Shown here piece by piece: positions 1 to 44,923 of a stretch of 64,000 bases of DNA. The DNA is taken from contig NZ_JAGSHT010000021.1 of assembly GCF_019947135.1 (NCBI RefSeq), positions 1 through 64,000 on the forward strand, read 5' to 3'. The position numbers were made by a program, and so were the translations under genes. The notes beneath the pieces were generated by a model. That model made no database searches, was not told the origin of the DNA, and saw only the letters and a program-made list of their open reading frames with translations. The DNA is from Occultella gossypii. Its GTDB lineage: Bacteria > Actinomycetota > Actinomycetes > Actinomycetales > Beutenbergiaceae. Numbering within the stretch: position 1 is the first letter of the stretch; each line of letters opens with the position of its first letter.

Positions 1-1282
1 TGGAGGCCCCAGCAGCCAACGTCGCCGCCTCGCAGGTCATCTCACCAACATTTGACTGGGCCACGAGAGTCGTGATCGTGGTGTCACCACTGTTGGTCAC
101 CGGGATGGTCATCGTGATCTGCTCCCCAACACCTTCCGGGGTATCGGCAGCCGGGATGATCTCCGTGATGGCCTGGTCCACGGTGAAGGTCACCATGCCC
201 GATCCGCCGTCGGTTCCATCGCTCCCGTCGGATCCATCGGTCGAGCCACCACCGAGCAGCGGCAGATCACCTAGCAGCGGCAGATCGCCGAGCAGCCCGT
301 CGGTCGGCAGGCCACCGCCCAGCAGGTCGTCGGTCGGCAGGCCACCGCCCAGCAGGTCGTCGGTCGGCAGGCCACCGCTGGAGAGCGACTCAAGGGTGTT
401 GATGTTGTCCGTCACCTGCAGGACGTCCAAGACATCCGTCGGGTTGCCGCTGGTCACGCTCTCCAGCGCTGTCTCCCACAGCAGTCGCCACGTGTCGAGG
501 TGGTCGCCGGCGAAACTCACGTAATCATCCACGTTGGTCAGCGTCTCGGGAGAGAGCCGCTGCAGGATGTCAGAGGCGTCGGTCGTCTGCCAGATGTAGT
601 TGGGATCCGTGAGCATTTCTGGACTCGGCAGGCCCGGAATGATCAGGTCTGAGAGGTTTGTCAGTTCCTCAACTGACGGGACATTCAGGGTTGTCAGATC
701 GTTGCTGTCCAGAGGGATGCCGATCCCGCCACACGAGGTGAGCAGGGTGACGTAATCGGTGCCGTGTCCCCTCACGTGTGAGGGGTTGAAGACCGGAATC
801 CAACCAAGCGGGCCGCCGTAGATGTCGATGACCGGCATATCGGAATTGCCGATGGCGCCGCTGGCCAACGAGAGGACCAGGTTTGCGTACTCGTCATCGG
901 TATGGAACTCGTTGAAGTGGGAAAAGGTCCCGATCAGGGGAATCCCGTCTTCGTTGGCCCACATGTGATCCAAGAAGAACGTGCAGGCGTCGCCGCCGGC
1001 CTCGTGTCCTCCTCCGTGGTCTTCAGACTGCGTGCCGTCCTGAGCCGTCCCGGTGGTACTCACCAGCTGCGCATCAGCGGGAGCGCCATCCTGCGCGGCA
1101 CCCTCGTCCGAACCAAGTGGCGCTGCCATCGCCGACGACATCAGACCGACACTCGCGGTCGCGGCAATCACTACCGATGCCACGGTGCGACCCGTGCGGC
1201 GTGCGAAAGCCGGAGCCAAGTTCCTCTCGGGCTTCACGTGTTCGGAGTCACCTTGGCGGCGACCCCACATAGTGAACGACAT
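1..1282 (-). CDS. Secreted repeat protein with DUF7507/DUF11-like domain, 3' end cut by window edge
   Basis: The reading frame starts at an ATG at 1282, preceded by GGAGAAG, and runs off the left edge, so at least 427 codons are present. The N-terminus is basic (MSFTMWGRRQ), with a hydrophobic segment near residues 35-50 ending in AMAAP, which suits a long-type signal peptide. Residues about 95-300 are a non-repetitive globular region with several Cys, Trp and His that I do not recognise. Then come three LPTDxLLGG repeats, a Gly/Ser/Asp linker, and a segment resembling actinobacterial DUF7507/DUF11 repeats (TNSGDTTITTL, CEAATLAAGAS), a beta-sandwich seen in surface proteins. An anchor signal, if any, lies outside the window. 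It is the last visible gene of three same-strand genes for secreted proteins and shares the LPTD-LL motif with its neighbour. The function is unknown. Confidence 0.85.
   Translation of the reverse strand, partial: MSFTMWGRRQGDSEHVKPERNLAPAFARRTGRTVASVVIAATASVGLMSSAMAAPLGSDEGAAQDGAPADAQLVSTTGTAQDGTQSEDHGGGHEAGGDACTFFLDHMWANEDGIPLIGTFSHFNEFHTDDEYANLVLSLASGAIGNSDMPVIDIYGGPLGWIPVFNPSHVRGHGTDYVTLLTSCGGIGIPLDSNDLTTLNVPSVEELTNLSDLIIPGLPSPEMLTDPNYIWQTTDASDILQRLSPETLTNVDDYVSFAGDHLDTWRLLWETALESVTSGNPTDVLDVLQVTDNINTLESLSSGGLPTDDLLGGGLPTDDLLGGGLPTDGLLGDLPLLGDLPLLGGGSTDGSDGSDGTDGGSGMVTFTVDQAITEIIPAADTPEGVGEQITMTIPVTNSGDTTITTLVAQSNVGEMTCEAATLAAGAS
299..388. repeat. 30-bp tandem repeat, about 2.7 copies
   Basis: Two near-identical 30-bp units begin at 299 and 329, followed by a truncated third at 359. 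They encode the ten-residue unit GGLPTDDLLG of the secreted protein on the minus strand. The codons match as well as the residues, so duplication is recent or maintained by slippage. Confidence 0.9.
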
Positions 1283-1515
1283 GATACTTCTCCATTCTCA
1301 TCAATCGCGGTTTCATGGGTCCATGAGACAGATGGATCGCATCGGTCTCAAGATCAAGTGGCCCTCAATGGTGAAAGCAGTATTGAGGGGTTCTCATCTG
1401 TTTTGATCGACACACCAGGTAAGGAACAGCGCATCGGCCGTCCGATAGGACCTGGTGTTCTGCCGAGCCCGCCTGCTGCCCGTCGGGCGGAAAGGCGAGC
1501 TCTAGAATCCGTGGA
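1283..1515 (-). promoter_or_regulatory. 233-nt structured, AT-richer leader before the first secreted protein gene
   Basis: No gene is seen here. The stretch is clearly less GC-rich than its surroundings. It holds two perfect inverted repeats: 1412-1420 with 1450-1458 (ACACCAGGT and ACCTGGTGT) and 1362-1369 with 1382-1389 (CCCTCAAT and ATTGAGGG), plus a smaller CATCGG/CCGAT stem inside the first loop. One could terminate the upstream gene. The others would lie in the 5' leader of the gene starting at 1282. It matches no riboswitch class I can recognise by eye. Confidence 0.45.
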
Positions 1516-3507
1516 TCAGTTCGCCACGGTTCGACGACGACGCATCATCACCAGGCCGGCAAGGACCAACAGGACCGAGATCCCGGCAAGCTGAGAATTG
1601 TCGACGCCGGTCGCTGGGAGCTCACCAGCCGGCCCCATCCCAAGCAGGCTGAGGGTAGAGCCGGTGTTACGCGGGGAGATCACCGCAGCGAAGCCAGCAC
1701 TCACGGACGAACCGCGATCAATGGAAGTCACACCCCTACCGGTCACGAACGAACCACCACCGATGGAAGTAACACCCCCACCAGTCACGTCCGAGACGCC
1801 TATGACACCTACGGTCCCGTTGGTTCCACTGGTCCCGTCAGTTCCGTTGGCGCCGTTGGTTCCACTGGTGCCGTTGGTGCCATCGGTGCCGTTGGTTCCA
1901 CTGGTCCCGTCAGTTCCATTGGTGCCGTCAGTCCCATCGGTCCCGTCAGCGTCAGTTCCGCCGTTCCCATCAGTGCCGTCAGTCCCATCAGTCCCGTCCG
2001 GGCCTTCGGTGCCGCCCAGCAGACCGTCGGTCGGCAGCCCGGCAAGCAGGCTGTTGGTCGGCACCATGGCAAGCAGGGTGTTGGTCGGCAGCATGGCGAG
2101 CAGGCTGTCGGTCGGCAGTCCGGCGAGGAGGCCGCCGGTTGCGTCAGCGTCGGTTCCGTCGGTTCCATCGGTTCCGTCGGGGCCCTCGGTGCCGCCGAGC
2201 AGACCATCGGTCGGCAGCGTGGCGAGCAGGCTGTCGGTCGGCAGTCCGGCGAGGAGGCCGTCGGTTGCGTCCGGGTCGGTTCCGTCGGTCCCATCGGTTC
2301 CGTCGGTTCCGTCGGTGCCGCCGAGCAGACCATCGGTCGGCAGCGTGGCGAGCAGGCTGTCGGTCGGCAGTCCGGCGAGGAGGCCGTCGGTTGCGTCCGG
2401 GTCGGTTCCGTCAGTTCCATCGGTTCCGTCGGGGCCCTCGGTGCCGCCCAGGAGACCATCGGTCGGCAGCGTGGCGAGCAGGCTGTCGGTCGGCAGTCCG
2501 GCGAGCAGGCCATCGAGCAACCCGCTGCCGTCGGTCCCGTCGGCGCCGTCAGGTTCGTCACCGGTCACGTCCTCGATGGTGCAGCACCCGTTGGGGCCGT
2601 CGGCGCCGTCAGGTTCGTCACCGGTCACGTCCTCGATGGTGCAGCACCCGTTGGGGCCGTCGGCGCCATCAGGTTCGTCACCGGTCACGTCCTCGATGGT
2701 GCAGCACCCGCTGGGGCCGTCGGCGCCGTCGGGTTCGTCACCGGTCACGTCCTCGACGGTGCAGCACCCGTTGGTGCTCTCAGTGCTGGTCGAGGTAGCG
2801 ACCGACTGGTCATTGTCGCCGTGCGCCTCTGCTGTGGTTCCGGAGTCTCCGGCGGTGTTCACCACGGCAATCTCGCCCTGGACCTGCTCCGCGTTCTCTC
2901 CGGGGTCCGTCGCCCCGTTGAGATCGTGGCCGTCGCTGGTGTTGTCACTGTCGATCACGACGGCGGTTGATGCGTCGCTGGTCGACTCAGCGGAGGTGTC
3001 ACCGACCTGCGTGGCGGAACCGCCCGATGCGTCGATCTGAGCCGCGTTGCCTCGGTCGTTGTCACTGTCTTGGGTGATGGTGTGCTCACCTTGAACGGAC
3101 ATCTCTGCGTCGAGGCTGCTGCCATCCGCTGTCTCGGGTTCCGACTGTGCGGCACTGGTCTCTGACGACACAGCAGGTTCGACCGTGGCCGTGACCACCG
3201 GCTGGTCACTATTGCCCTCTGGTTGGTCACCGCCCGCGCACTCGTCCTCTGGGGTAGCGAGCGGTGTCCCGTCGAGGATGTTGAGGAGGTCGTTCGTGGA
3301 TTCGCAGGTGGCGTCATCACTCGCGTCCGCATTGCCGTTCTCGGCAGTCCCCTCAACGGTTTCTACCACCAACGGCGTCGCGGTGCTTTCAAGGATGTCG
3401 TCAACCACGGCGCCACCTGTGTCGGCTTGAGCTACTACCGGGCCGATGGCTATGAGCCCCCCGGCGAGCAGCGACGTATACAGCGCGCGCTTCACATAGG
3501 TATGCAT
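1516..3507 (-). CDS. LPXTG-anchored, repeat-rich surface protein
   Basis: This 663-residue protein starts at ATG 3507, chosen because CAGGAG sits 7 nt upstream and a signal peptide follows directly (MHTYVKRALYTSLLAGG to VAQA). An in-frame start 15 codons earlier lacks this. Order of parts: signal peptide; acidic Ser/Thr/Asp-rich stalk to about residue 240; four 20-residue repeats with core GCCTIEDVTGDEPDGADG; three 42-residue repeats built on GLLAGLPTDSLLATLPTD plus GTDGTDGTD; a long Gly-Thr-Asp/Asn tract with glycine at nearly every third position; a Ser/Thr/Gly/Val-rich region; then LPATG, a hydrophobic helix and RRRR. The last part is a class-E-like sortase sorting signal, so the protein should be linked to the cell wall. 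No sortase lies in the window. Paired cysteines in each 20-residue repeat are unusual for a stalk. Adhesin or structural roles are guesses. Confidence 0.9.
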   Translation of the reverse strand: MHTYVKRALYTSLLAGGLIAIGPVVAQADTGGAVVDDILESTATPLVVETVEGTAENGNADASDDATCESTNDLLNILDGTPLATPEDECAGGDQPEGNSDQPVVTATVEPAVSSETSAAQSEPETADGSSLDAEMSVQGEHTITQDSDNDRGNAAQIDASGGSATQVGDTSAESTSDASTAVVIDSDNTSDGHDLNGATDPGENAEQVQGEIAVVNTAGDSGTTAEAHGDNDQSVATSTSTESTNGCCTVEDVTGDEPDGADGPSGCCTIEDVTGDEPDGADGPNGCCTIEDVTGDEPDGADGPNGCCTIEDVTGDEPDGADGTDGSGLLDGLLAGLPTDSLLATLPTDGLLGGTEGPDGTDGTDGTDPDATDGLLAGLPTDSLLATLPTDGLLGGTDGTDGTDGTDGTDPDATDGLLAGLPTDSLLATLPTDGLLGGTEGPDGTDGTDGTDADATGGLLAGLPTDSLLAMLPTNTLLAMVPTNSLLAGLPTDGLLGGTEGPDGTDGTDGTDGNGGTDADGTDGTDGTNGTDGTSGTNGTDGTNGTSGTNGANGTDGTSGTNGTVGVIGVSDVTGGGVTSIGGGSFVTGRGVTSIDRGSSVSAGFAAVISPRNTGSTLSLLGMGPAGELPATGVDNSQLAGISVLLVLAGLVMMRRRRTVAN
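2191..2520. repeat. 126-bp in-frame tandem repeat, about 2.6 copies
   Basis: Units start at 2191, 2317 and 2443, exactly 126 bp apart, and encode 42-residue blocks containing GLPTDSLLATLPTDGLLGGT and a GTD tract. A more diverged related block lies at 2011-2140. The copies differ mainly in the length and third bases of the GTD tract. Confidence 0.9.
2539..2778. repeat. 60-bp tandem repeat, four copies
   Basis: Four consecutive 60-bp units (2539, 2599, 2659, 2719) differ at only a few bases. Each encodes a 20-residue block with a Cys-Cys pair and EDVTGDEPDGADG. Near-identity including silent positions indicates recent expansion. Confidence 0.95.
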
Positions 3508-3514
3508 GGAAGTA

Positions 3515-3600
3515 CTCCTGACTGACTGGGTGGAATGCGCCCATCGGCGCATGTGAACGTGCCGGGAGGATTCCCCGGCCGTCTACCCGTCAGTCAGGAG
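3515..3600 (-). promoter_or_regulatory. Long-range RNA stem joining a stop codon region to the next Shine-Dalgarno
   Basis: The segments 3589-3600 and 3515-3526 are perfect 12-bp inverted repeats (CTCCTGACTGAC and GTCAGTCAGGAG), extendable by CCC/GGG past a one-base bulge. In the minus-strand mRNA the first arm contains the stop codon of the upstream gene (3590-3592). The second arm contains the AGGAG Shine-Dalgarno of the gene starting at 3507. Two smaller hairpins sit between them: 3535-3541/3546-3552 and 3561-3566/3574-3579. The layout suits translational coupling, in which a ribosome finishing the first gene frees the second ribosome site. That role is inference. Confidence 0.6.
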
Positions 3601-5131
3601 CGATGGCGACCTCGAGGAGAACCTCGAGAACGGTCGACGGCGACGCCGCGACCGCGAGAGCACTTGAAGAGTTCGCGGGCACCCAAAGCCCACTAACGAT
3701 GTCTGCGTATCCAGTGCCGAACGTCGGACCGGCCGCACGCGCGGTACCGGTCGGCGCCGAAGCAGGGGCCGTGGCGGGCACCGGTGCGCTACCGGACCCC
3801 GGCCCGCCCTGGCCGATCTCTCCAGGGGCAACAGCGCCGCTGGCTACGGCCGCCATGCTGCTTTCTTCCTGCCCGAACCCGTCCACATCAAGAACGGAGC
3901 CCTGAACGAATGAAGAAGGATCGGCCGCTTGTGTAGCCGCCTCGACGCTCACCTGGTCCGGCGCGGGCGTCCGAGCACCGACCGGCTCCACCGGGACGTC
4001 CTGTGCTGCAGAAGCGGAGAGGTGGACGAAGCGCAACGCTGGATAGTCGTCGAGACCTTCCCCGACTGCCGCCATGAGAGCCAGCCCTGCGACCGAACCG
4101 ACCATCGGGCCCACGACGCCGGCGACAACCGGCTGGGCAAGCCCTTCAACAGCGATGGCTACGACATCGGCGACGACCGGATCAACGGCTTCCACGATCG
4201 GCGTGACGACCTCACGAAGCACCGGAGCGATCACATCGCCCACCAACGGGTCGAAGATGCGCTCGACGGGCAGGTCGATCTCTTCGCTGACCGGTCCGGC
4301 AACGTCGGCAACCAGCGCAGTCACCGAAGGGATGCGCCCGGCGAGGTCACGGACCGCAGTGCTGATCCCCGGCTCGTCCTCAACCGCCCGTCGGGCGAAT
4401 ACCTCCGCCGTCTGGTCGGTGAGCTCGGTGGCGGCTTCCGGCTGGGACAGGGTCTGGGGTCCCGCCGCGCTGGCGTCAGTGCCACCTTCGGCAGCGACAG
4501 TCGTCGTAGGCGCCGTACTCGGCGCGGGCACTACCTCGCGCTCGTTCTCATCGGCGCGGGGTTCACCGCTTGCCGCCTGCGCGTCTGCGGCGACGTCCGC
4601 CACGGGCTCAGTGACGGCGACGGCTGCTCCGTTGACGGCGTCCACGATCGCAGGCACGTCGTCGACCGTCAGCTCAACGGTCTCCGCCACTGGCTCAGCC
4701 AATCGTTCGACGACGTCGACGGCACCGTCGGTCACCTCCGTCACGGCATCGGTCGCCGCGAATGTCGACCGGTCGGACGACTCTTCGCCCTCGACCGGAT
4801 CGGCCATCTCGAACGGGACCGCTTCCTCGCCGGCCGCACTCGCCTCAGCCTCGCCGTCACCGGTCTCGACGGAGTCCGGGGCGCTCTCTCCTTCTTCGGA
4901 GCCACCCACAACCTCGTCGACCATGACGGTCGCTTCATCCGCGACGACGGTCGCGTCCTCGAGCAGTCCACCGACGAGTGAGTCGTCGGCTGATGCGGCA
5001 GCGGTGAACGTCGCGCCCAGGAACAAGGAGCCGAGGAGGGTCAGGAGGCCACGCAGGGCCCACCGCAGCGAACGGCGCCGGCCGTCCGGCTGCTGGCCGT
5101 CCGCATGGTCAACCATGCCCCCGCTACCCAT
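3590..5131 (-). CDS. Secreted acidic Ala/Val-rich protein, unknown function
   Basis: The chosen start is ATG 5131 (MGSGGMVDHADGQQ), giving 513 residues. The frame is open further upstream, but that part is out of character and crosses a promoter-like region. An ATG five codons further in is also possible. A basic stretch (RRRSLRW) and hydrophobic helix ending FTAAASA at about residue 50 form a signal peptide. The mature protein is acidic. Around residues 230-400 it has repeated hydrophobic blocks of the type DPVVADVV and QPVVAGVVGP, which could form amphipathic strands or helices. A Pro/Ala/Ser-rich tail follows. There is no LPXTG motif or C-terminal membrane anchor, so it may be released or bound non-covalently. 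It is the first gene of the three-gene secreted cluster. No family was recognised. Confidence 0.8.
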   Translation of the reverse strand: MGSGGMVDHADGQQPDGRRRSLRWALRGLLTLLGSLFLGATFTAAASADDSLVGGLLEDATVVADEATVMVDEVVGGSEEGESAPDSVETGDGEAEASAAGEEAVPFEMADPVEGEESSDRSTFAATDAVTEVTDGAVDVVERLAEPVAETVELTVDDVPAIVDAVNGAAVAVTEPVADVAADAQAASGEPRADENEREVVPAPSTAPTTTVAAEGGTDASAAGPQTLSQPEAATELTDQTAEVFARRAVEDEPGISTAVRDLAGRIPSVTALVADVAGPVSEEIDLPVERIFDPLVGDVIAPVLREVVTPIVEAVDPVVADVVAIAVEGLAQPVVAGVVGPMVGSVAGLALMAAVGEGLDDYPALRFVHLSASAAQDVPVEPVGARTPAPDQVSVEAATQAADPSSFVQGSVLDVDGFGQEESSMAAVASGAVAPGEIGQGGPGSGSAPVPATAPASAPTGTARAAGPTFGTGYADIVSGLWVPANSSSALAVAASPSTVLEVLLEVAIAPD

Positions 5132-5165: not shown

Positions 5166-5193
5166 ATGTTACCCACATCACACAGATGCGCAA
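5166..5193 (-). promoter_or_regulatory. Promoter with CRP-like palindrome for the secreted-protein cluster
   Basis: On the minus strand TTGCGC (5188-5193) and TAACAT (5166-5171) are 16 bp apart. They overlap TGTTA-N6-TCACA at 5167-5182, one base off the CRP/GlxR consensus TGTGA-N6-TCACA. The site lies about 35 bp upstream of the chosen start at 5131, and its overlap with the -10 would suit repression. The prediction is by eye only. Confidence 0.45.
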
Positions 5194-7134: not shown

Positions 7135-8291
7135 GGTAGCCAGGCGACGACCCGGAAGCCTTGGGCGTGCGGTCCGTGGGTGAGCCGGCCGTGCGCGAGG
7201 TCGACCCGCTCGGCCAGGCCGATCAGGCCGGCCGAGGATCCCACGAGCGTCGCGTCGGCGGGGCGGGTCGGGGCGTCGTTGCTGACCTCGATGTTCAGGC
7301 CCTCGCCCGGCTCGCCGTCGACGCGCACCCGCACCGGTGCGCCCGGCGCGTGCTTGCGGGCGTTCGTCAGGGCCTCCTGCACGATCCGGTAGCCGGTCCG
7401 GGCGCTCGCACCGGGCAGGGTCGTCGGGTCCGCGTAGCCGGCGGAGTAGGCGATCTCCATGCCCGAGGCGCGGGCCGTGGCGATCAGTCGCCCGATCTCG
7501 GGCACGTCGGGCTGCGGGCGCGGCCGGTCGGGTCCGTCACCGTCGGGCAGGCGGAGCACACCGATCACCTCACGGAGGTCCTCGAGGGCCTCGTGGGTGC
7601 CGGTGCGCAGCACCCCGGCGGCCCGGGCCACCTGCTCGGGCGGTGCGTCCGGCCGGTACTCCAGCGCACCGGCGTAGGTGGCCAGCAGCGACAGGCGGTG
7701 GGCCAGCACGTCGTGCATCTCCCGGGCGATCCGGGCCCGCTCGGCGAGCCGGGCCTCGTCCGCGTGCCGGTCCCGGTCCGCCTCGGCGCGTGCCGCCCGC
7801 TCGTGCAGCGATCTGATCACCTCGGCGCGGGAGCGGAACAGGGCGCCGACGCCGAGCAGGGCAGCGTGCGCGGCGGCGTCCAGCAGTACGAACCAGAGTG
7901 TGTCGATGCCCGGCATCGGCCGCCACAGGAACTGCACCAGGTGGGCGCCGAACCCGATCACGGCGATCCCGACGGCGTCCGGCAGTGGGGCGTTCCGGGC
8001 CACGTAGTACGTGCCCATCGTGGACCCGGTGGTCGCGACCGGGGACAGCGTCGCCAACAGGGCGAGCGCGGCGGCGCCCGGCACCGGTCGGCACGCCAGC
8101 AGCGGCACGCACAGCACCGACGCGACGGCGACGCCGACGTCCAGGACCACGAACGCCGTCGACGGTGCGTTCGAGATCATGCTCACCAGGGTCAAACCGG
8201 CCAGCGCCGCCAGCCCGAGCATCGTCACGGCCGTGACCTGCGGTGGCGGACGCCGCGGATCGGTGGCGCAGACATCCTGGAGGGTCCTCAT
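7122..8291 (-). CDS. Sensor histidine kinase, HisKA_3 type
   Basis: This 389-residue kinase starts at ATG 8291. The open frame extends further upstream but into the divergent promoter region. About five hydrophobic segments occupy residues 20-150. They are followed by the HisKA_3 dimerisation helix with phosphoacceptor His193 in REMHDVLAHRLS and by a HATPase domain with N-box EALTNARKHAP. The membrane sensor has no extracellular domain of note, like DesK-type kinases that sense membrane or drug stress. A TACGCT box at 8299-8304 lies 7 nt before the start and suggests a leaderless mRNA. The partner regulator follows directly. Confidence 0.93.
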   Translation of the reverse strand: MRTLQDVCATDPRRPPPQVTAVTMLGLAALAGLTLVSMISNAPSTAFVVLDVGVAVASVLCVPLLACRPVPGAAALALLATLSPVATTGSTMGTYYVARNAPLPDAVGIAVIGFGAHLVQFLWRPMPGIDTLWFVLLDAAAHAALLGVGALFRSRAEVIRSLHERAARAEADRDRHADEARLAERARIAREMHDVLAHRLSLLATYAGALEYRPDAPPEQVARAAGVLRTGTHEALEDLREVIGVLRLPDGDGPDRPRPQPDVPEIGRLIATARASGMEIAYSAGYADPTTLPGASARTGYRIVQEALTNARKHAPGAPVRVRVDGEPGEGLNIEVSNDAPTRPADATLVGSSAGLIGLAERVDLAHGRLTHGPHAQGFRVVAWLPWPR

Positions 8292-19781: not shown

Positions 19782-19899
19782 GCGCGACGAGATCGCACCC
19801 GGCGCCTCGGCGGGAGCGCGCCAACACGCGGGTCATCGCTGGAGCTCGAGAACCGTGGGCAGCAACTCTGCCTCACCGCTCTCAGGATACGGCCGGGGC

Positions 19900-42559: not shown

Positions 42560-44641
42560 TCAGCGGCCACCGTCCTCACGTCGCCGGCGGGACAGCCCGA
42601 GGAGCGCGATCCCGAGCCCGCCCAGCAGGCTCGCAGCGAGTGCCGTGGTGCCGGCTGCAGCGCCGGTGCTGGGCAGCTGCGGAGTGGCCGGGTCGAGGGG
42701 CGCGTTCAGCCGTGCGGGTGGCACCGGCTGCCCGACGAGCAGCACCGGCACGGTCGCCGCGGGCACGATCGGGTCCGGCACGGTCGCCGCGGGCACGATC
42801 GGGTCCGGCACGGTCGCCGCGGGCACGATCGGGTCCGGCACGGTCGCCGCGGGCACGATCGGGTCCGGCACGGTCGGTTCCGGCAGGATCGGCTCGATCT
42901 CCAGCTCGCACGGGATGTCCGTGAGCTCGAACTCGAACGTCGCCACCTGGGCGGGCACATCGAGCGCAACGAACTGGGTCGTTGCGGCGAGGGTCGGTGC
43001 CGACGCGAACTCGTTCAGCGTCCAGCCCGCCGGCAGCTCCGCCGGGAGCAGGTAGCCGGGCTGCGCGACCGCGTTCAGGAACCGGCCGTCCTGCAGCCAG
43101 ACATCCAGGCCCACACCCGCGGTCCACTCCACCGCATCGTTCGCGGTGGCGCAGTGATCAACCACGCCGGGCTCCGGGAAGGTGACCGGCATCGACTCCA
43201 GCGGAGTCGCGCAGTCCTCAAACTCGACCTCGGCGATCGTGACGGTCGTCTCGGCCTTTCCGGAGGTACTCAGCTGCCAGCCGTCCGGGACCTCGGTGAT
43301 GCTGTAGTGCCCGGCCGCGGTCGCGATCACGCTGTACGTGCCGGGAGCCAGGTCGGAGAGGTTCTCCGGCTTTCCGGCAAGGGCACCGTCGACCAGGTGG
43401 TGCACCACGTACTCGACGTGATCCGCACCGGGCAGGGAGATTGCGCCGGTGGTCGCGCAGGTCGCCTGGGTCACCACGAGCGGCGCGACGGCCACGCCGC
43501 ACTCCTCCGCCGTCACCTCGTGCCGCGTCTTGCCCACCCAGGTCCACGAGCCGGGCTGGCCGAGGACCCACGAGTCGCCGGAGAGGACGTAGTCGGTGGG
43601 GCGCTCGTACTCGTCGATCCAGATCCAGCCGAGGTCGCAGCGCACGGTGGTCTTGAACCGGGTCTCCACCAACGGTTCCGGCTGGCACTCGACGTTGTTC
43701 TGGGTGCGCGTGTGCGTGGTGCGGAAGCCATCGGGGAACGTGTAACCCTCGGCCGGCACCACGTTGATCGAGACCTTGCCGTTCAGCGTCGTGTGGTCGA
43801 ACACGTAGTAGGTGTACTCGACGGTGCTGGTGTAGACCCAGTACCCGTTGTCCACGCCGCACTCGTCGACCCACTGCGGCAGGGCCGGGGTGATGACGGT
43901 GAGCTCGGGCACCTCGGGCACCTCGGGCACCTCGGGTACCTCGGGGCCTTCGGGCTGCGGGCAGGCACTCACGTCCGGCTCGCCCTGCTGCCCACCCCCG
44001 GTACGCGTGTCCCAGCCGATCACGATGGACCGGTTGTGCGCGTCAGCGAATCGCAGTCCCACCACGTCATCGGGGTAGGCCAGGCCGGACGGCCAGTCGG
44101 AGATCGAGCTGATACTGACGCTGAGCGGGTTGTTGCCCGTCTGGAGTCGCTCGTCCACGCCGGGCGTGCCCACGTACTTGCACACGAACACCTTGCGGAC
44201 CGCGTCCTGGGTCATCGCCGTTGCGGTCGCGGCCGGTGTTGCCGGTGCGACTTGCTCCGGTGCTGCCGGCCGGGGCGCACTCTCGATTGCGGGCTCAGTG
44301 GCAGGGTCGGGCACGGACTCGCTCGCGGACCCGGCGGCCGGCGCCGGGGCAACGTCGGCGACCGGGTCGGCCGCGGACTGCGCGATCGGGTCGGCCTCGG
44401 GCGCCACGGCTGCGGGCTCGACCACGGTCGCTTCGACGTCGGGAATCGCCGTCGGCTCAGCGGCCTGCTCGGGTGCGGTGGGCTCGGCGGCCGCGGCGTC
44501 GACGACCTGCGCCTCGATGACGGCGGCGCCGCCGTCGTCGAGGGCGTCGGCGAAAGCTGGTGCGGAGGCCGCGGTCAGCACTCCCAGGCCGAGTGCCAGA
44601 GCGGCGAGGGTCGCGACGGACCCTCTGATTATGGTTCTCAT
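42560..44641 (-). CDS. LPXTG-anchored surface protein, Pro-rich wall-spanning repeat
   Basis: The 693-residue protein starts at ATG 44641, preceded by GGGGGATCG. Order: signal peptide (MRTIIRGSVATLAALALGLG to AFA); an acidic Ala/Glu/Pro region; an extracellular domain from about 160 (RKVFVCKYVGTPGVDERLQTG, broken after the first part by beta-rich sequence); a PEVPEVPEVPE linker; two or three Trp/Tyr/Cys-rich beta domains (YWVYTSTVEYTYYV, WIWIDEYERPTDYVL); four copies of TVPDPIVPAA; then LPSTG, a hydrophobic helix and RRRRE. The KYVGTPGxxERLQTG segment is common in actinobacterial wall proteins. It should be sortase-linked with the Pro-rich repeat spanning the wall. Adhesion is a guess. Confidence 0.9.
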   Translation of the reverse strand: MRTIIRGSVATLAALALGLGVLTAASAPAFADALDDGGAAVIEAQVVDAAAAEPTAPEQAAEPTAIPDVEATVVEPAAVAPEADPIAQSAADPVADVAPAPAAGSASESVPDPATEPAIESAPRPAAPEQVAPATPAATATAMTQDAVRKVFVCKYVGTPGVDERLQTGNNPLSVSISSISDWPSGLAYPDDVVGLRFADAHNRSIVIGWDTRTGGGQQGEPDVSACPQPEGPEVPEVPEVPEVPELTVITPALPQWVDECGVDNGYWVYTSTVEYTYYVFDHTTLNGKVSINVVPAEGYTFPDGFRTTHTRTQNNVECQPEPLVETRFKTTVRCDLGWIWIDEYERPTDYVLSGDSWVLGQPGSWTWVGKTRHEVTAEECGVAVAPLVVTQATCATTGAISLPGADHVEYVVHHLVDGALAGKPENLSDLAPGTYSVIATAAGHYSITEVPDGWQLSTSGKAETTVTIAEVEFEDCATPLESMPVTFPEPGVVDHCATANDAVEWTAGVGLDVWLQDGRFLNAVAQPGYLLPAELPAGWTLNEFASAPTLAATTQFVALDVPAQVATFEFELTDIPCELEIEPILPEPTVPDPIVPAATVPDPIVPAATVPDPIVPAATVPDPIVPAATVPVLLVGQPVPPARLNAPLDPATPQLPSTGAAAGTTALAASLLGGLGIALLGLSRRRREDGGR
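42751..42870. repeat. Four perfect 30-bp tandem repeats
   Basis: Identical 30-bp units start at 42751, 42781, 42811 and 42841, encoding the TVPDPIVPAA units of the surface protein. A fifth unit after 42871 is diverged. Perfect identity implies very recent expansion and likely length variation between strains. Confidence 0.95.
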
Positions 44642-44923
44642 GATCGATCCCCCGTGTTGCGGTTGGATGTGCGGTTCTGAGCTGCCACCGGCGCATGGTG
44701 TGAACGAGTGCTGCGCGGCGGGGCGAGCCCAGATCAACACGACCCCGACGCGCCGGGGAGCGTCCGGCGTGGTGATCGTCTGGTGATTCAGAACGGCGGA
44801 ATTCCGCGGCTGAGGGCGGGGGTGAGGGGGTGAAGGGTGAGTCTCGTCCTCACTTCACCCGGTCGCGTCGGCAGCGTCAGGGCCGGGAACCTGCCGAGTC
44901 CGAGGGGCGCGCCGGCCGGCAGA

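Follow-up and report, generated by a model that had tools for sequence, protein, structure and literature searches.

Two reports describe YcnI of Bacillus as a protein that binds Cu(II) and exchanges it with YcnJ (PMC8424229, PMC12154828), and the first calls bacterial copper acquisition elusive. In the ycnKJI operon of Bacillus subtilis, YcnI corresponds to DUF1775 and YcnJ combines CopC, CopD and YtkA. Here this operon is compared with a cluster of three consecutive minus-strand genes, designated 3, 2 and 1 in their order of reading, that lies at the start of a 64,000-nucleotide stretch of Occultella gossypii DNA (the window, which is the first 64 kb of contig C4 in a genome of 5.84 Mb and 39 contigs). 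We tentatively propose that the three genes encode a cell-surface module tied to the handling of an extracytoplasmic metal, probably copper. In three relatives, genes for YcnI and for a CopC-CopD protein lie directly after gene 1; two of these loci (L021 and L030) also have YtkA, as described for YcnJ (PMC8424229), the third (L063) being cut by the end of its stretch. The cluster differs from the operon in that the window genome has no YcnI and in that genes 1 to 3 are without counterpart in the operon as far as it is described there (PMC8424229).

Other described systems resemble individual parts of the cluster. LPXTG-anchored collagen-like adhesins of the Scl1/Scl2 type share with gene 2 a signal peptide (in gene 2 a signal-peptide-like start, judged by eye), a Gly-x-x tract and the LPXTG motif, with weak NCBIfam matches of gene 2 to SclB and SclA (25.2 and 17.2 bits, against curated cut-offs of 325 and 400, respectively); gene 2 departs from them in having a tract rich in GTD, GTN and GTS, together with blocks carrying paired cysteines (CC) or LPTD-LL units. 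The chaplins and rodlins of Streptomyces represent the idea of a surface assembly in which one protein is anchored in the wall and several are released; the likeness lies in this idea, and no chaplin or rodlin Pfam match occurs in the three window proteins (E up to 1). Secreted CHRD proteins have a parallel in the Micrococcaceae homologues of gene 1, which end in CHRD where Ruaniaceae gene 1 has immunoglobulin-like (Ig-like) repeats. Finally, MelC1, the tyrosinase copper chaperone, resembles gene 1 at phmmer E 0.0043 when the query takes in the signal peptide and the linker with its His, the match also covering a short H..NxDG..SH stretch; this candidate was rejected, the match being gone with a profile of the domain alone and no MelC1 Pfam match being found. 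Word searches of the open-access literature found no paper describing the module, which is weak evidence, the domain having no name to search for.

The proposal centres on a domain of about 204 residues in gene 1, a gene whose full order is signal peptide, Gly/His linker, this domain, LPTD-LL units and Ig-like repeats (Table 1). The 16 other copies, from Ruaniaceae, Micrococcaceae and Dermabacteraceae, are 79-91% identical to that of the window, and 116 of 203 residues are invariant across the 17 sequences. All six His of the window domain (H8, H24, H29, H71, H75 and H163, numbered from the Ala before the first Cys) are invariant in 17/17, as are C2 and C86, which could form a disulfide, and several Asp, Trp and Tyr. 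Invariant positions numbered 119 in the 16 rows without L046 and 116 once it was added as the 17th (L046 and L061 are one domain copy, counted once); neither the His nor the two Cys were affected. The domain is preceded in every sequence by a Gly-rich stretch with 1-8 His per 40 residues (background mean 1.07 per 40), counts being highest in L040 (8) and in three copies of the genus Ruania (5-6). Synonymous divergence (dS, NG86 method) between the window copy and 15 others is 0.48-1.65 and non-synonymous divergence (dN) 0.06-0.13, which points to a long period of strong purifying selection, not to a very recent spread. In the domain tree, Ruaniaceae (96/96) and Dermabacteraceae (86/94) are each split off by one branch and Micrococcaceae are not. 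None of ten members had a Pfam match at E up to 10, and a profile search of PDB sequences gave no credible relative, the best hits (E 0.5 and 0.83) being unrelated. Judged by these comparisons, the domain makes up a protein family of its own, as yet unclassified, with about 80% identity between members from three bacterial families. An ATCUN copper motif at the mature N-terminus was also considered and discarded, since plausible cleavage sites, placed by eye, put the His at position 4 in several homologues and later in others.

In a contig collection of 84,980 species searched with six exact peptide patterns, nine of 84 candidate stretches proved to be true relatives of the domain (Ruania, Arthrobacter, Glutamicibacter, Pseudarthrobacter, two Nesterenkonia, two Brachybacterium and Zhihengliuella). 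Whole-genome samples, which overlap in part, contained it in 1/394 genomes of the class (the window's own, with a single-sequence query), 7/396 of the order, 6/295 of the family of Arthrobacter SW1 and 4/47 of the family of Brachybacterium phenoliresistens. Each match retained in the order sample scored at least 416 bits, and five of the 12 matches (E 0.04-0.42, below 15 bits) were counted as none; among the genomes searched, the domain is strongly present or absent. No plasmid match was found, and none of 18 pattern stretches in viral contigs was confirmed as the domain. Outside Ruaniaceae its C-terminal partners differ: PF07452 (CHRD) exceeds its cut-off in six of the eight Micrococcaceae homologues profiled (L022, L023, L024, L029, L041 and L042) and stays below it in L025 (17.7) and L040 (24.0, cut-off 24.1), L028 having been left out of this profiling, and the Dermabacteraceae tails (L026, L027, L045 and L061) gave a Pfam match in 0/4 cases. 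CHRD is absent from both the window part of gene 1 and its C34 tail. Two side observations concern homologous loci. In Nesterenkonia PF2B19 (L028:6190-7798), the frame is interrupted before the CHRD-like part (7493-7798, in another frame), which may reflect a draft error or decay; a folB-like gene, recognized by eye, follows the domain gene in L028 and L058, with folE- and folP-like genes before it in L028.

The window's family includes Ruania albidiflava, matched to G015 by identical contig number, coordinates and E-value of its L021 genome, and is therefore taken to be Ruaniaceae; the window's genus is another than that of Ruania albidiflava. Among the 24 Ruaniaceae genomes of our set, the window genome (G000) included, gene 3 occurs in five (G000, G014, G015, G017 and G021), as a full-length gene or as a fragment at a contig end. 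When 396 genomes of the order were searched with an alignment, these five alone scored above 29 bits; left out were partial matches at 18-28 bits (E 1.6e-6 to 1e-3), found in seven further genomes and as an additional one in G000. The gene 1 domain is found in G000, G014, G015 and G021, which also match the C-terminus of gene 2 at 49.9-187.4 bits (matches below 25 bits left out). In the 360-contig assembly of G017, all that is seen of gene 1 is its end, with which contig C87 begins and which YcnI directly follows; contig C164 breaks off within gene 3, and the gene 2 C-terminus was not found. Genes 1 and 3 are co-inherited in Ruaniaceae. The preliminary description of this DNA, made from its letters only, had named homologues that never co-occur as what would speak against it; genes 1 and 3 occur in the same five of the 24 genomes, and the end of gene 2 in four. 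The order 3-2-1 can be read directly in the window, in G021 (L030) and in G014 (L031); contig ends fall inside the cluster in G015 and G017, and in G015 gene 3 stands at the end of one contig (L033), and another contig opens with the end of gene 2 and then gene 1 (L021). A second genus has the same order, and the genomic settings differ, the module lying between what we take to be TrxA/TrxB and ParA/ParB genes in G014 and G015 and elsewhere in G021 and the window; names of flanking genes, among them TrxA, ParB, MurJ and TerC, were assigned by eye. Nearby in G014 lies another copy of gene 3, with a gene 2-like repeat protein after it. The module is patchy: the window's genus has three further genomes, and these matched neither gene 1 nor gene 3.

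YcnI (DUF1775, PF07987) is present in three of the 24 Ruaniaceae (G015, G017 and G021), all of which carry the module. In each, YcnI comes directly after gene 1, and the gene behind it carries CopC and CopD, an arrangement found in 0/19 module-free genomes; were the two independent, the chance of all three YcnI genomes falling among the five module genomes would be 10/2024 = 0.005. In the window, the gene after gene 1 encodes a CopD-CtaG fusion (Caa3_CtaG 263.3 bits, CopD 65.2 bits). CopC occurs in 23/24 Ruaniaceae and therefore proves nothing by itself; the only match of the window genome (46066-46347, plus strand) is 41 kb away from gene 1. In two of four Dermabacteraceae loci (L026 and L061), PepSY_TM genes come right after the homologue; none was seen by eye in L027 and L060.

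Gene 2 bears the anchor of the cluster. Its profile matches exceed the cut-offs for LPXTG_anchor (17.3 bits, cut-off 15.9) and Collagen PF01391 (29.3 bits, cut-off 27.2; 149.8 bits in L030), and the sorting motifs of four species read LPATG, LPSTG, LAATG and LPATG. The collagen-like tract is poor in Pro. The signal-peptide-like start was recognized by eye, and ATG 3507 is more likely the start codon than the first ATG of the open reading frame (3552), because the frames of two relatives begin there (MHT..). The 42-residue blocks form a 126-nt tandem (3.4 copies, 94%) and the 20-residue CC blocks a 60-nt tandem (4.0 copies, 96%); CC(T/S)(V/I)(E/D)DVT is kept in all three full-length gene 2 proteins, in 4, 2 and 2 copies. 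LPTDxLL occurs three times in the window part of gene 1, in 10-residue units (a 30-nt tandem of 3.1 copies, 95%), and eight times in gene 2, compared with a maximum of one in 2000 residue shuffles of each. With the wider pattern LPT(D/G/N)-LL, gene 2 has nine copies in the window and none in L030, L031 and the end part of L021; in gene 1 the unit is present in all four Ruaniaceae with a readable copy. In three relatives, what the two genes have in common is an Ig-like module (47-66% identity over 79-102 residues). Since LPTD-LL is common to both genes in this species only and the Ig-like module in relatives, the adjacent genes seem to swap display modules, and LPTD-LL looks like a linker rather than a domain.

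Base 1 of the window is the end of contig C4 and cuts gene 1. Contig C34 ends with the same 127 bases as window positions 1-127 (C34:345814-345940), and from this overlap we infer that the two contigs are joined at gene 1. C34 contains two exact copies of the 127-mer, so that the assembly was interrupted inside a genuine repeat and gene 1 may have more or fewer repeat units than the joined contigs show. The tail on C34 is an open frame of 366 amino acids that finishes one Ig-like repeat and adds two more with four LPTGDLL units; it has no LPXTG motif before its stop and exceeds the cut-offs for CARDB (46.3 bits, cut-off 22.7) and DUF7507 (45.1 bits, cut-off 27), in three stretches each, DUF7507 reaching 15.4 bits in the window part alone.

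The preliminary description survives this analysis in part. Three consecutive minus-strand frames with signal-peptide-like starts are seen by eye, LPTDxLL is shared by genes 1 and 2 of the window, in 10-residue units and in 42-residue blocks and beyond what shuffling gives, the four 20-residue paired-Cys blocks, the Gly-x-x tract and LPATG of gene 2 are all present, and gene 3 is without anchor, there being no LPXTG match. The claim that no core domain is recognizable is right as regards gene 3 and, in gene 1, the N-terminal domain, and fails for the gene 1 tail (CARDB, DUF7507) and gene 2 (Collagen). Gene 1 is not complete, being cut by the contig end, and LPTD-LL as a hallmark had to be abandoned, the two other full-length gene 2 proteins and the one partial one having none. 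The idea of a surface assembly is borne out as anatomy, with one anchored protein clustered with others that lack an anchor; the core domain of gene 1 also lives without gene 3, and the proteins may assemble physically.

On the reading that we tentatively favour, the three genes would be one surface-protein module of some Ruaniaceae, in which gene 2 would supply the LPXTG-anchored stalk, its collagen-like Gly-x-x tract serving as spacer beside the blocks of paired cysteines, gene 3 would be a secreted partner without anchor, and gene 1 would be secreted, its six-histidine domain placed behind the Gly/His linker and carried on Ig-like repeats. Such a module would capture or buffer a transition metal, probably copper, outside the membrane; in some species it would act alongside YcnI and CopC-CopD, both uptake proteins, and in this one beside the CopD-CtaG (cytochrome oxidase assembly) protein. 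The invariance of all six His and the YcnI association argue for it, as do the conserved order 3-2-1, the CopD-CtaG gene after gene 1 in the window, the His in the Gly-rich linker, the PepSY_TM neighbours in Dermabacteraceae and the Cu(II) exchange between YcnI and YcnJ in Bacillus. The analysis shows co-inheritance, gene order, the anchor and domain profiles and the nearness of copper genes; that the proteins bind metal, that this metal is copper and that they assemble is what we infer. Several observations weigh on the other side. The three YcnI genomes belong to one genus and may represent one event; the window genome is among those without YcnI; G014, with an intact module, lacks it too, has CopC far away and, as the next clear gene beyond gene 1, an aminotransferase; and no recurrent metal gene was seen by eye next to the Micrococcaceae loci, L023 alone having what we take to be a TerC-like neighbour. 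The linker has one His in L025 and two in the window and several others, and AlphaFold2 on ten domain rows gave no confident fold (mean predicted local distance difference test score 32.6), so that the His cannot be assigned to a site. The main rival, little less probable, is a surface layer with a structural or adhesive function and no metal role: the stalk of gene 2, the partner of gene 3 and the Ig-bearing matrix protein of gene 1 would form an extracellular coat, or bind a surface or polymer, and the copper neighbours would be historical. LPXTG, collagen-like tracts, Ig-like domains and variable repeats are typical of adhesins and matrix proteins, and the module has them all, in variable repeat numbers; it occurs in G014 without copper neighbours, and the domain is found elsewhere fused to CHRD and without gene 3. 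Such a layer fits poorly with YcnI being confined, among the 24 Ruaniaceae, to module carriers and always adjacent, and with a core domain (79-91% identical to the window's) far more conserved than its repeats.

The same conservation (116/203 invariant positions, among them six His, several Asp, Trp and Tyr, and two Cys) would suit a surface-tethered enzyme, such as a metal-dependent hydrolase or oxidoreductase, displayed on LPTD-LL, Ig and CHRD linkers; we regard this as improbable, as the profile and PDB searches gave no match to an enzyme family beyond chance-level E values of 0.5 and 0.83 and no recurrent substrate operon was seen. Chance adjacency of three unrelated secreted low-complexity proteins, with LPTD-LL as a convergent Gly/Leu linker, is more improbable still and already disfavoured by the co-occurrence result. 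The absence of LPTD-LL from gene 2 of relatives would agree with it, as would the occurrence of the gene 1 domain without gene 3, which was unmatched in all eight Micrococcaceae and Dermabacteraceae genomes tested; the order 3-2-1 kept in another genus and other settings, the pair of gene 3 with a gene 2-like gene found twice in G014 and the Ig-like module common to genes 1 and 2 of three relatives speak against it. A bolder form of the metal reading, which we consider unlikely, would see in the domain a class of its own, new among those that bind copper extracellularly, and in genes 3-2-1 a "copper antenna" on the Gram-positive surface, with dedicated stalk and partner holding the six-histidine domain outside the wall and passing copper to YcnI/CopCD or to a CtaG/CopD oxidase-assembly route.

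Gene 3 has no recognized domain in profile searches and no LPTD-LL repeat; its ends are conserved, with ..SLRWALRG..ASADDSLVGGLLEDA in the N-terminus and ..EVLLEVAIAPD at the extreme C-terminus. All six gene 3 copies are preceded by the consensus TTGC(A/G)-N17-TA(A/G)CAT with TGTGA(T/C)G(T/C)G(A/G)G at the spacer end, which looks like a sigma-70 promoter with a regulator site; MtrA was considered as a candidate for its reader. Exact matches of the spacer plus TAACAT occur in 18/118 loci, all of them overlapping stretches around gene 3 copies, and the window has a single match at up to three mismatches. The inverted repeat before gene 1 may be an operator, a hairpin or chance: its GCGATC loop is invariant in four species and the arms are partly kept, yet the covariation term of the fold is slightly unfavourable (+0.94 with four sequences), so that it gives no evidence for an RNA structure. 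Rfam returned nothing at gathering scores in eight sources. Finally, two further long proteins were noted: in G014, a repeat protein of more than 2300 amino acids after the second gene 3 copy (L031:2-6904, minus strand; PANGNGGNGND, LPGLPGV and EATDDVTDTVG arrays), which runs off its stretch, and, in the window (42560-44740, minus strand), another secreted-looking protein that is rich in Ala, Glu and Pro after its signal peptide.

Table 1. Features of the gene 3-2-1 cluster; positions refer to the window unless a locus is named.
Feature	Position	Strand	Basis or remark
Gene 1, incomplete (contig end at base 1)	1..1282	-	signal-peptide-like start, Gly/His linker, orphan domain, LPTD-LL repeats, first part of Ig-like repeat
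10-residue LPTDDLLGGG units of gene 1	286..378	-	tandem-repeat analysis
Orphan domain of about 204 residues, N-terminal to the repeats of gene 1	380..991	-	alignment of 17 sequences
Putative gene 1 tail, in frame, contig C34	L006:14841-15941	-	exact 127-bp overlap
Inverted repeat upstream of gene 1, TGAGACCGAT-GCGATCC-ATCTGTCTCA	1324..1350	-	kept in part among 4 species
Gene 2, LPXTG surface protein, 663 amino acids	1516..3507	-	CC blocks, LPTD-LL blocks, Gly-x-x tract, LPATG
LPATG sorting motif of gene 2	1606..1620	-	followed by hydrophobic stretch and RRRR
Gly-x-x (collagen-like) tract of gene 2	1812..1998	-	profile and repeat analysis
42-residue blocks of gene 2 with LPTDSLLA/LPTDGLLGG	2083..2515	-	tandem-repeat analysis
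Four 20-residue CC blocks of gene 2, GCCT(V/I)EDVTGDEPDGADG..	2537..2774	-	tandem-repeat analysis
Gene 3, secreted-looking, 513 amino acids, PVxxxV-rich repeats	3590..5131	-	alternative start ATG 5116
Promoter-like element upstream of gene 3, TTGCGC-N16-TAACAT, TGTGATGTGGG at spacer end	5166..5193	-	comparison of 6 copies
Same gene 3 element in relatives	L030:7991-8007; L031:8431-8447 and 19848-19864; L033:397-413; L034:9030-9046		

Even without a copper role, the gene 1 domain would stand as an unclassified family with no match in Pfam or among PDB sequences. The gathering of copper outside the membrane by Gram-positive cells is poorly known and, if the copper role is true, a conserved domain of invariant His beside YcnI/CopCD, together with a dedicated surface stalk, would offer a testable entry to it.

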